37,478 nucleotides of DNA, taken from a virus. Position numbers and translations under genes: made by a program. Below are positions 9,310-27,186 of this stretch, piece after piece (the stretch's first letter is position 1; each line of letters begins with the position of its first letter). The stretch is from the IMG/VR virus record IMGVR_UViG_3300037258_000773, positions 1-37,478 of that record, one strand, 5' to 3'. The notes below the pieces were generated by a model. The model was not told where the DNA came from. It saw nothing but the letters and a program-made list of their open reading frames with translations, and did no database searches.

Positions 9310-10170
9310 CTAGGCAACGAATACTTTCCATATCGCCGTTGATTGTTTTCGATACTTATCTAGATCGATACTTTTTATCTCTGGAATAGCATCGTAATCA
9401 ATACGACCGCGAGTAATGGTTTTTAGCACGCGCACACCATGTGCTAGACAATTTCTATCGCCACAGAGGGAAAGAAGGCCTTTTCGATAGTCTGCTTTTA
9501 GCTCTTCTAGACAGTCTATTTGAGCGCATATATCCTTGTATCTTTCTGCAAGCACTTTCCATGATTCATTATGCGACATGTCCTCGTAGTCTTTATCCTG
9601 CAAAGGGGGCGAATCCCCTAAAGCTACACAGCGCCAGAATTCGCGAGCCTTTGGCATGAAATTGACCTTGTATTCTGGATCAGGTAAAACTTCTATGCAT
9701 ATGCCATCGGAACCATTGTAGCTGTAATAAAAACACTTCTCTGCCCCAGTGACAAGCAATTGATGCTGCATTTGGTCACGATAATATGCGGGAATTTCAC
9801 CTCGAGAGGCCGTGTCATGAAGTTTAGATCCTCCGCATTTGACTTCCAAAATGTGATTTCCTGAAGAAGAAATACCATCGAGAGAAGCTCCTAGAAAGTC
9901 AAATTCCGTACTTTCTACAACAACGGGAACCATGTCAATGCCATGAGTTTCGATAAAGAGGGATCTCGCTTCGGGTTCTAATCTTTTACCTCTTTCCATG
10001 GCTTCGTTAGACGCCTTTTCCTCAATAAGTCCCAGCTTTCTTTGCCAGCATTTGTACGGCGTTTCCCAGGGATTATTTCCCATGATTATTGAGGCATCGG
10101 TTGCTGTAATGACTGTCTTTCTCCAAGACAGCCATTCTTGTGATCCTTGTTCTACTTTAATTATCTTCAT
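9310..10170 (-). CDS. YqaJ-type phage exonuclease (lambda Exo-like recombinase nuclease)
   Basis: This 286-aa protein begins with the family start EQGSQEWLSWRKTVITATDA and then GNNPWETPYKCW. It shows the PD-(D/E)XK core: E65 in GKRLEPEA, D98 in GASLDGI, then E109 and K111 in ILEVKC, and the helix YYRDQMQHQLLVTG. Family knowledge: such enzymes are toroidal 5'-3' double-strand exonucleases that expose single strands for a partner annealing protein. The partner gene (ERF-type) lies directly upstream with a one-base overlap (TAATG), giving a complete two-component recombination pair like Exo/Beta. The C-terminal 90 residues are a helical extension. Confidence 0.93.
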   Translation of the reverse strand: MKIIKVEQGSQEWLSWRKTVITATDASIIMGNNPWETPYKCWQRKLGLIEEKASNEAMERGKRLEPEARSLFIETHGIDMVPVVVESTEFDFLGASLDGISSSGNHILEVKCGGSKLHDTASRGEIPAYYRDQMQHQLLVTGAEKCFYYSYNGSDGICIEVLPDPEYKVNFMPKAREFWRCVALGDSPPLQDKDYEDMSHNESWKVLAERYKDICAQIDCLEELKADYRKGLLSLCGDRNCLAHGVRVLKTITRGRIDYDAIPEIKSIDLDKYRKQSTAIWKVFVA

Positions 10171-10859
10171 TATGCCACCGCTATGGAATTTTCTTTGTTT
10201 TTGTCATTCAGGTATTTAATTTTAGCATTAAGAGAAATCATGCATTTTTCGAAGCAAAACATAGGAATATCCTGAAGGTTGGTCGCATTGAAGCTCTTCT
10301 TGATCCACTCGAGAAAGTTTTTGCTACTCTCTTCATCTAATTTTTGGATTAAGGTGCCTAAGGCAATTACTTCTTTGTTTCCGACTTTTTCATGTGGAGA
10401 AGAAAAATCTAAAGATGATTTTTCTTCTTTAGAATTTTGTTTATTCTCCTGTGTTTTACCACGACCAACGGCCGTTTCTCCATCGTCATCATCGTCACAA
10501 ACGACTCCTACAATGGCAGAGAGTGAATACCTGCGTAGGTAGGTAATAGCGGCTCCTATGCCCTGGCTATCGTTTTTAGCTGGATTCAGTGGTAAGTATG
10601 ACTTCATCCACTGACCGGACGTATGAGCAAGCGTTGTTACCATGACAATTTTAGTGCCATCGGCAACCATTTCCGTTGTCTGCATGACGCAAAGACCATG
10701 TTTGCTGAGAACTGGGCGTGCAGCATCCCAAACGCTTCCTAAATCCGCATAGGAGCTCTTGAAGAAGGGATTTATCTTGTCCTTAATGGCTGCTTGCATT
10801 TCTCCTTGAGCCTTAGACAGGGCGGCAGCTAACTCGTTTATTACTTCTGAATGTGCCAT
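10170..10859 (-). CDS. ERF-family single-strand annealing protein
   Basis: The protein opens with INELAAALSKAQGEMQAAIK and NPFFKSSYADLGSVW, continues with the block RPVLSKHGLCVMQ, and ends its core with GIGAAITYLRRYSLSAIVGV and an acidic DDDDDGE stretch. These are the hallmarks of the ERF family (phage P22 Erf relatives). It anneals complementary single strands and works with the exonuclease downstream. I start it at ATG 10859 (MAHSEV) because an AAGGAA SD lies before it; the earlier in-frame ATG at 10877 lacks one. The C-terminal third (after residue 150) is polar and helical. Length is 229 aa. Confidence 0.9.
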   Translation of the reverse strand: MAHSEVINELAAALSKAQGEMQAAIKDKINPFFKSSYADLGSVWDAARPVLSKHGLCVMQTTEMVADGTKIVMVTTLAHTSGQWMKSYLPLNPAKNDSQGIGAAITYLRRYSLSAIVGVVCDDDDDGETAVGRGKTQENKQNSKEEKSSLDFSSPHEKVGNKEVIALGTLIQKLDEESSKNFLEWIKKSFNATNLQDIPMFCFEKCMISLNAKIKYLNDKNKENSIAVA

Positions 10860-10917
10860 GTGATAATTTTCCTTCATTTAAATTTTTGTTTTGATGATAT
10901 TTGGCGTCATAAAATCG

Positions 10918-25492: not shown

Positions 25493-25771
25493 ATGACAGT
25501 ATCAATCGCATCGTTGCCACCGCAAATTCAACAGCGGTACAACGCAAAATTACTGTCCACTCCAGAGCACAACCTGATTCATCAGTTATTTGCCACACCC
25601 GTGGAATTGCCTGATAATCAAGGTTTCATCGACAGACAGTCTCGTTATGACAGACTGGACCTGTTTGAAGTGCCTTTGGACGATGGACAAAACAACCCAC
25701 CTCCTCAGCAGCTTAACCGCGTTGACGTGGATAATGACCTGTGGTCCACATGGGATGAATACGCGGCATAA
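25493..25771 (+). CDS. Major capsid protein, exon 1 (intron-split gene)
   Basis: This is the N-terminal part of an N4-gp56/P22-like major capsid protein: IASLPPQIQQRYNAKLLSTP, a loop FIDRQSRYDRLDLFEVPLDD, then PPPQQLNRVDVDNDLWSTWD. The frame stops at TAA 25769 in the middle of a conserved strand (WDEYAA), and the rest of the protein resumes 770 bases later in exon 2. The exon is expected to end at T25760 or T25769; in the first case U56-U60 pairs with GUUCG at 25781-25785 as a group I P1 helix with the required U-G pair. The SD is AGGGAAC. Without splicing, only a useless 92-aa peptide would be made. Confidence 0.88.
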   Translation: MTVSIASLPPQIQQRYNAKLLSTPEHNLIHQLFATPVELPDNQGFIDRQSRYDRLDLFEVPLDDGQNNPPPQQLNRVDVDNDLWSTWDEYAA

Positions 25772-26524
25772 ATGTGCAGGGTTCGCGTATACGCCACTTA
25801 TATCGTTTTAACGAGACAAGTGACGATAACCAACGAGGATAGAATTGTGTCCTCGGTAAATCTACTCTGATTGACTTGGAACCCCTAACGGATAAGACGA
25901 GGGCGACAGGGCGGAAGGATTTATAAGTTTGTGAATATTGATAGAGGATAAAAGACGATGACATTCGCAGCGAGCATAAAATTGTTCGGCAGTGAGTTTG
26001 GATCTAATTACCCCTTTTTCTGGGAGAAAATAGGTCTTTCTCATTCTCAACATGATTTCGCAATGATGTTTTTTTATTCTCAAATAAGGAAGAAGGCTAG
26101 GAAGCAATTTATCCAAGCACTCTCCAGTTACATTAGCTTCGTAAACTGTTCGGCGATTGAGGTGTTTTCTTTTTTTAGAAACTACTTTTTCCCAATAATG
26201 GATGCCCAAAAATTCTTGAAGCCATTTCATAATGGATTCATCAACCGAGGCAAATTTAAGAACTGTTCTATGTACGACAGGATAAAAACCTGTTTTAGCT
26301 TTGACGGTATCGATGTAAAAGCACCCATCTCCGTCGATGTAACCAGCGAGATAAGCAAAGTTAAATTCTTCCATAATAACTCCTTTACTACAGTATACAT
26401 AGATGTAGAATATAGATCTACCGTAAACGACTAAGTGAGTGGACTCCGGAAGGAGATGCGATAGTCTGATCTCATGGGAGACTATGAGAGGGAGATCCGA
26501 AGAGGTTTCCCCGCCTAGAAATAG
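25761..26524 (+). mobile_element. Group I intron in the major capsid gene
   Basis: The core can be drawn by hand: P1 (TGAAT/GTTCG), two stem-loops (CACTT..AAGTG at 25795-25823 with TCGTT/AACGA inside; CGAGGA/TCCTCG at about 25833-25855), P3 (CTACTC 25862-25867 with GAGTGG 26437-26442), the GGAACCCCUAACGGA block for P4-P6 (about 25880), P7 (GACTA 26429-26433 with TAGTC 26462-26466), P8 (CTCC-GGAA-GGAG 26444-26455). The S region GATAGTCTG resembles that of the T4 td intron. The last base is probably G26524. A LAGLIDADG gene lies antisense within it. Splice sites are my estimate; the core is well supported. Confidence 0.85.
25862..26374 (-). CDS. LAGLIDADG homing endonuclease, antisense inside the intron
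   Basis: The 170-aa protein starts MEEFNFAYLAGYIDGDGCFY: one LAGLIDADG helix with its catalytic acid (D in GDG), so it should work as a homodimer like I-CreI. Later blocks fit that family: GFYPVVHRTVLKFASVDESI, WLQEFLGIHYWEKV, then LLPSLLPYLRIKKHHCEIML. The start has GTAAAGGAGTTATT on the minus strand, so it is read opposite to the capsid message and independently of splicing. Its last 20 or so codons (NPSALSPSSYPLGVPSQSE) cover P3-P6 of the intron on the other strand, and its stop falls exactly at the P3 strand. It would cut intronless capsid genes and spread the intron. Confidence 0.93.
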   Translation of the reverse strand: MEEFNFAYLAGYIDGDGCFYIDTVKAKTGFYPVVHRTVLKFASVDESIMKWLQEFLGIHYWEKVVSKKRKHLNRRTVYEANVTGECLDKLLPSLLPYLRIKKHHCEIMLRMRKTYFLPEKGVIRSKLTAEQFYARCECHRLLSSINIHKLINPSALSPSSYPLGVPSQSE

Positions 26525-27186
26525 GTCATAAAAGTAACAGTGTGCCAGTTCTTAATAGCGCCGCGGCTCGCCTCGGACAAAGTTTAAGAGAAACTCAGGA
26601 CGCTCTCCAAAGAGACAATTTGGAAAGTTCTGGTTCCATTATCAATTGTGTAGGGGGAACTGATGGCGATATTCCCACTGAGATGACTATCACAGATGTG
26701 GATGACGTCTTCACTGTTCTTCAGAACAATAGCGGTGAGTACATAACAAATATCGTAGAAGCCGAACTGCGTTTCGGAACATCACCAATAGGCGATGCAT
26801 ACGGTTGTATGTTAACTACTCGCATGATTCCTGTTCTGTACAACATGACTGGTTTCATCAAGAAATTCCAATATCCGAACATCTCCCAAACGCTGACTAC
26901 GGAAATTGGCGGAGCTAATAACATCCGCTTCTTTGCTTCTGAACAGGGTTCTGTCTCTCCTAATGCTTCAATGCTTGGAAATGACATTGCTAACTGTTTC
27001 GTATCAGCTAAAGAGGCATACAAAGTTGTTTGGCAAGCAGGTGGTAAAGCTCGCTTTATCTATTTGCCTCCTGGTTACAACAACGATCCCTGCATGCTAC
27101 GGCATACAGCAGGTTGTTCGTTCTACCAAGGTCAATGCATCACAAATGACCTCTGGCTCCAAAATTTACGCTCAACAGGAATATAA
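26525..27186 (+). CDS. Major capsid protein, exon 2
   Basis: The reading resumes with VPVLNSAAARLGQSLRETQD and ALQRDNLESSGSIINCVGG, the conserved central block of N4-gp56-type coat proteins, followed by TDVDDVFTVLQNNSGEYITN, GDAYGCMLTTRMIPVL, GSVSPNASMLGND and the ending YQGQCITNDLWLQNLRS. GTG 26542 has no ribosome binding site and is not a start. The exon probably begins at 26525, adding HKSNS before VPVLN if joined to a T. The spliced protein would be about 310 aa, somewhat short for the family, with the HK97-like fold expected. AGGAGG after its stop starts the next gene. Confidence 0.88.

Follow-up and report, generated by a model that had tools for sequence, protein, structure and literature searches.

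How can a phage major capsid gene whose reading frame stops early and resumes some 770 bases later still yield a complete coat protein? This question is raised by the window analysed here (the whole of a 37,478-base virus record). According to the best overall explanation, to which we assign a probability of about 0.7, group I splicing would join three exons into the capsid mRNA, with a mini-intron sharing the core of its neighbour and a degron serving as a fail-safe.

Relatives of the gene were collected by IMG/VR scans with each gene half (162 and 169 confirmed, 80 kept from each) and compared by an ends-free version of spliced alignment, which copes with truncated contigs. These alignments revealed two inserts, of 42 and 704 nt, in the major capsid gene (25493-27186), with an exon of 66 nt between them. 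The features of the locus are:

25493..25732, + strand: capsid exon 1 (MTVSIA...RVDVD), by spliced alignment to the intronless relative L003
25733..25774, + strand: mini-insert of 42 nt following RVDVD, by spliced alignment (no insert there in 95 distinct sequences, one of 38-48 nt in 18)
25733..25771, + strand: predicted read-in peptide NDLWSTWDEYAA, then stop, with a degron-like tail, by translation in the exon-1 frame
25775..25840, + strand: exon 2 of 66 nt (CRVRVYATYIVLTRQVTITNED), by the protein of the relatives and spliced alignment
25841..26544, + strand: predicted main group I intron of 704 nt, by spliced alignment, P1, helices and covariation of the class
25862..26374, - strand: LAGLIDADG homing endonuclease ORF of 170 aa, PF00961 (E 3.2e-9, 38 bits, cut-off 23.1)
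26545..27186, + strand: capsid exon 3 (PVLNSAA...LRSTGI, including the stop), by phrog_1357 and spliced alignment

Insert-free relatives encode an unbroken coat protein, RVDVD-CRVRVYATYIVLTRQVTITNED-PVLNS (315 residues in L003), and a family protein of the same length is restored when both inserts of the window are left out. The junctions that restore it are U25732/A25733...G25774/U25775 and U25840/A25841...G26544/C26545, all in phase 0. The exon 3 frame matches the major head protein profile phrog_1357 (E 3.9e-14), while a Pfam search with the capsid exons gave no match. An earlier, sequence-only reading had correctly located the first stop at 25771 and the resumption of the capsid frame at 26542, and the uninterrupted relatives (95 distinct sequences) do lack the 770 bases as coding sequence. 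Its single intron, with 25760 or 25769 joined to 26525, was rejected, as 22 residues present in the relatives would stay missing; the 42-nt insert and the 66-nt exon had been overlooked. The WDEY that it took for a conserved capsid strand lies inside the 42-nt insert, and the V (GTG) of its VPVLNS belongs to the second insert.

As regards the rest of the genome, the portal gene of the window matches P22-type portals. Genes for an SPFH/Band 7 protein (859-1707, - strand) and for a YqaJ-type exonuclease, the latter beside an ERF-type recombinase gene (9310-10877, - strand), were also recognised. The only host hint comes from two capsid relatives (L235 and L236), whose contigs were binned with one MAG of Verrucomicrobia and one of Acidobacteria; the capsid gene of L236 also holds introns of the class described below.

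The longer insert would be a complete group I ribozyme. Its internal guide sequence (IGS) GTCCTC (25849-25854) pairs with GAGGAT (25835-25840) at the 3' end of exon 2, forming P1 with a U.G pair at the 5' splice site. P3 (25861-25867 with 26437-26443, positions read from the sequence), P7 (26429-26433 with 26462-26466) and P8 (26444-26447 with 26452-26455) all pair, and G26544 is the terminal G. A P10 pairing also belongs to the features of its class. Among the relatives, 68 full introns were kept (at least 200 nt, preceded by T, ending in G and having AACA or AATAG close to the 3' end, so that the terminal G is not independent evidence there). They occupy 15 sites of the capsid gene in three phases, and in 67 of 68 the best 6-nt P1 pairing scores 5.7 or more out of 5.9 (the best of 28 positions tried within the first 34 nt). 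The tag counts given below exclude eleven other alignment rows that lacked the 3' motif or were too short; seven of these rows also read to Ala-Ala-stop (two being the same tag in L157). Up to four inserts (the mini-insert and three full introns) were seen per capsid gene, in L149, L154, L156, L158, L124 and L145.

Covariation of the core was assessed in an alignment of 12 short introns selected by length out of the 68. A structure comprising P3, P4, P5, P6, P7, P8 and P9 leaves 96.2% of 420 cells paired, as opposed to 32 to 47% (maximum 47.1%) with the partners slid; the structure was drawn by hand on that same alignment, which favours it in this measure. Changes on both sides occur in 29 of 35 core pairs, including 7/7 in P3 and 3/5 in P7, and 87 cells are changed on both sides compared with 19.8 in shuffles (0 of 500 shuffles as high). 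An automatic P3/P7 finder maximises pairing and chose wrong helices in several long introns; it was not used for covariation, and the P7 motif of the site-103 introns was read separately. No group I match was obtained with Rfam, at gathering or permissive thresholds, in the window or in four relatives. The sequence-only reading had named the failure of such a covariance-model search beforehand as one half of what would count against it; the missing match is a property of the model library and not of the mechanism. Its central claim, that a group I intron with a pairable core splits the capsid gene, stands on the covariation in the relatives.

Inside this intron, antisense to the capsid gene, lies the LAGLIDADG ORF, which the earlier reading had not mentioned and whose C-terminal part shares its sequence with the 5' half of the core. 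A relative in L145 is 79% identical. An opposite-strand LAGLIDADG motif was found in 12 of 13 introns of at least 400 nt at site 103 and in 3 of 5 at site 104, and in the introns at sites 97, 265, 280, 286 and 295 it is the sense strand that holds the longest open stretch. The antisense gene probably makes the main intron mobile.

The 42-nt insert resembles the guide part of such an intron. The last 6 nt of exon 1, GTGGAT (25727-25732), form the 5' strand of its P1 with the IGS GTCCAC (25744-25749). L1 (25733-25743) holds a P10 strand, CCTGTG (25738-25743), whose partner is the 5' end of exon 2 (TGCAGG), and the insert ends with G25774. In the 18 distinct relatives with the insert P1 is present in all and covaries: GTCCAC faces GTGGAT in 13 and GTCGAC faces GTCGAT in 5, so that position -4 is G-C or C-G, respectively, with at least three changes of this base on the capsid tree (12 carriers placed). 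Position -7 is T-A in 14, C-G in 3 and, in the window alone, a C-A mismatch. Each of the 18 inserts comes after GTGGAT or GTCGAT, and its last base is a G, with TGC or TGT next to it; the pattern scans demanded GGAT or CGAT, which means that for the contigs found in this way the final U carries no independent weight. P10 follows the 3' exon (CCTGTG/TGCAGG in the window, where it begins with two G.U pairs; CTACA/TGTAG in L149; CGGCA/TGCCG in L158), with a score of 63.0, compared with 57.0 when the exons are shuffled among the pairings (p 0.006, 14 unique combinations). No catalytic core of its own was found in the mini-insert, and all 18, at 38-48 nt, are too short to hold one. The mini-insert is thus regarded only as working like a group I intron and is not classed as a complete one. 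The mini-insert might descend from the intron of a P22-type coat gene (L245, with the same P1 letters); judged by eye, the site of that intron is at another place in the protein.

The best reading of the 42-nt insert is that of a core-less group I mini-intron, cut down to a guide whose IGS pairs with the 5' exon (P1, with U.G) and whose P10 strand pairs with the 3' exon, ahead of a terminal G, and which would be removed with the ribozyme of its neighbour. All 18 carriers have an intron at the site between NED and PVL (in L162 the contig is cut off inside it). Within the tree set of 98 genes, both inserts are present in 12, the main intron alone in 2 and neither in 84; on the tree there are 11 changes of the mini-insert and 13 of the main intron, with the same direction in 9.9 of 10 independent pairs. 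The repeated joint gain and loss can be explained by co-conversion during homing as well as by functional dependence, because the two inserts are only 66 nt apart and co-conversion would link them without any dependence. It is conceivable that another core splices the mini-insert, supplied by a host ribozyme or by an intron at some other place in the genome, and that only co-conversion, which predicts the behaviour on the tree, ties the mini-insert to the main intron; many carriers do have further introns in the same gene. Against this, the main intron is the sole full capsid intron in L001, L002 and L014, where the nearest core lies 66 nt from the mini-insert, and a mini-insert without the main intron was seen in 0 of 18. 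We consider splicing by another core unlikely, and removal by the main-intron core 66 nt downstream most likely.

What would happen to a ribosome that arrives before splicing? In the window it would read the exon frame through the mini-insert to ...WDEYAA and a stop, a degron-like tail also missing from the sequence-only reading. When the exon frame was followed into the full introns as far as the first stop, Ala-Ala-stop was found in 46 of 53 (the 68 minus 15 at the NED site behind a mini-insert). The seven others end in VA-stop (4), AV-stop (1) or WN-stop (1) or have no stop inside (1). Tagged introns occur at each of the 15 sites and in all insertion phases (25/31, 9/9 and 12/13 for phases 0, 1 and 2), the phase being offset by the spacer between splice site and P3 in 46 of 53. 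When the 68 introns were read in their other two frames, Ala-Ala-stop came up in 0 of 136 cases, and only 7 of 2423 other stops within introns are preceded by Ala-Ala. The tag is spelled in 19 ways with all three stop codons, which argues for selection on the peptide. Many tails end in YALAA, LLAA or YAIAA. A 204-nt insert of L145 (site 286) has 68 codons without an exon-frame stop and, if unspliced, would give a longer capsid protein.

The mini-introns behave alike. After L124 and L155 had been merged as one contig and L014 (also YAA-stop) added, 17 of 18 distinct contigs proved to be tagged, with L154 as the exception. Behind a mini-intron, 0 of 15 introns are tagged, compared with both introns (L004 and L024, which are alike) at the same site without one; by eye, those of L014 and L160 stop at once and that of L162 reads untagged to RIVSSINLL-stop. 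Once a mini-intron provides a tag ahead of it, the downstream intron would see its own tag decay, a reading that shares the moderate probability given below for the joint claim. From mini-introns of 38 and 41 nt the ribosome would exit out of frame and, within the 66-nt exon, run into TG-T GCC GCG TAA. Of the 9 carriers with inserts of these lengths, 8 have this spelling, as opposed to 0 of the 9 remaining carriers and 1 of 95 relatives without an insert; common descent of the flank may account for it.

Could Ala-Ala-stop be a by-product of RNA structure (the P5 hairpin or J6/7) and not a protein signal? Some tags are overlapped by GCAGCGTGA at J6/7 and by hairpins such as CTGC-TTAA-GCAG in P5, and five of the 46 lie, by eye, on J6/7, a segment prone to Ala-Ala-stop for structural reasons. 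However, the tags are found at varied places (L1, the P4-P6 region, J6/7 and the mini-introns), their spellings and stop codons vary while they always keep to the exon frame in three phases, and the enrichment in other frames that a structural origin predicts was looked for and came to zero. Introns with the same core lack the tag behind a mini-intron, and L004 (...CTCGCAGCATAACTGG, tagged) and L127 (...CTCTGAACATAACTGG, untagged) differ at the tag while most neighbouring letters are equal. A structural by-product is therefore distinctly improbable. In tmRNA (ssrA) tagging, a C-terminal Ala-Ala marks proteins for ClpXP, and since the read-in tail is tmRNA-like, proteases of the ClpXP type should destroy the truncated fragment of the capsid protein before it poisons assembly. 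Such a fail-safe against truncated capsid from unspliced mRNA is suggested by analogy. The tmRNA tags of two MAGs that contain relatives end in MVLVA and FLQAA.

Two other fates of the mini-insert have to be weighed. Its guide might join exon 1 directly to exon 3, so that a second form of the capsid protein, shorter by 22 residues, is made. The phage Twort reportedly shows exon skipping. Such skipping is described for genes with two group I introns in PMC10136302, and the phase-0 junctions would keep the frame. Nevertheless, the P10 strand of the mini-insert pairs with the 66-nt exon, its final G directly precedes that exon, and the peptide of the exon is identical in 17 of 18 carriers, which leaves exon skipping very little probability. 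The weakest candidate is programmed bypassing of the T4 gene 60 type, in which an unspliced insert would be skipped by the ribosome and take-off and landing codons match: the inserts are short (38-48 nt), their length is not a multiple of three in 9 of 18 (38 and 41 nt; 12 of 18 with those of 47 nt added) and in-frame or early stops follow the take-off codon, but the preceding GAT does not match the last bases of the insert (ATG, TTG, GTG or AGG), and P1 and P10 covary with both exons, a feature that bypassing does not need.

Removal of the mini-intron by the neighbouring core and an in-frame degron remain the preferred reading, and the tag was followed beyond the capsid family. A P3-P4 DNA pattern scan found at least 120 stretches, and the 80 listed loci that were used gave 83 hits, 73 of them unique and 56 with a clear exon frame (the longest upstream ORF), which in 43 of the 56 was the one frame able to pass the motif. 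Ala-Ala-stop was found in 31 of 56 (24/37 in capsid relatives and 7/19 in other or unassigned genes), and several more end in VA-stop. In another gene family (L347, L350, L354, L371 and L381) the frame ends in ...FALVA-stop or ...FAMVA-stop upstream of a core of the same class, and L375, in a gene not recognised as capsid, has two motif hits about 440 nt apart that both read to RAQAKAA-stop. In an unrelated P22-type coat gene, one of three introns carries the tag, and 57 of the 60 distinct loci are intronless at that site, and the annotated truncated coat protein of MW202674 ends in LLAA. No tag was found in T4 td (VFLG-stop), T4 nrdB (YVSFA-stop) or an intron of a Desulfovibrio phage (WAR-stop), the last in what is presumably an anaerobic ribonucleotide reductase gene. 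The tag is not universal, as the wider scan, the P22-type coat gene and the two T4 introns demonstrate; its distribution, in small numbers, would fit a role where truncated subunits are harmful.

We consider it moderately probable that both novel parts hold jointly, namely a natural core-less, guide-only intron of 38-48 nt dependent in cis on its neighbour, and virion-gene introns with a tmRNA-like degron. The 42-nt intron-like insert makes the locus new, and the in-frame degron-like tag is the most surprising result. In the literature covered, which does not include most subscription papers and is therefore no proof of absence, neither a degron in a phage intron nor a core-less group I intron was found to be reported. 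If true, a guide-only intron served by the core of its neighbour would be a natural step from self-splicing towards trans splicing and would bear on the old question of how introns lose their own catalysis, and phage introns would bring their own protein quality control.

Among known systems, tmRNA tagging shares the C-terminal Ala-Ala with the read-in tails, whereas the tag of the window is encoded by the intron and would come from ordinary translation that runs on to a stop codon. The td and nrdB introns of T4 are likewise phage group I introns with endonuclease ORFs (by annotation), those of T4 self-splicing; in contrast to the window, they lie in enzyme genes and their read-in peptides lack Ala-Ala. 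In the engineered group I spliceozyme described in PMC4094466, a core removes a separate intron at two base-paired splice sites, but that system is man-made and acts in trans, while the one in the window is natural and would act in cis. Unspliced yeast HAC1 mRNA gives a protein with an intron-encoded degron, as stated in PMC8002603; this is a non-spliceosomal, Ire1-dependent intron of yeast, and both degron and intron are unrelated to those found here. The closest counterparts are the introns of the LittleE capsid gene and a Baka tail gene, whose splicing was demonstrated by RT-PCR (PMC3706429). The passages of that paper on these introns describe one per gene and no mini-intron, and do not mention a read-in peptide. 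Like the window, both introns have U before the intron and G at its end and reach Ala-Ala-stop in the exon frame (AAA-stop in LittleE and AAAAA-stop in Baka), although they share a 156-bp 5' part and are not independent; a LAGLIDADG ORF on the bottom strand of the LittleE capsid-gene intron was already known (PMC3706429). Reading the exon frame to the first stop is a simple test for any phage intron, and it extends already to this experimentally proven capsid intron of a mycobacteriophage.
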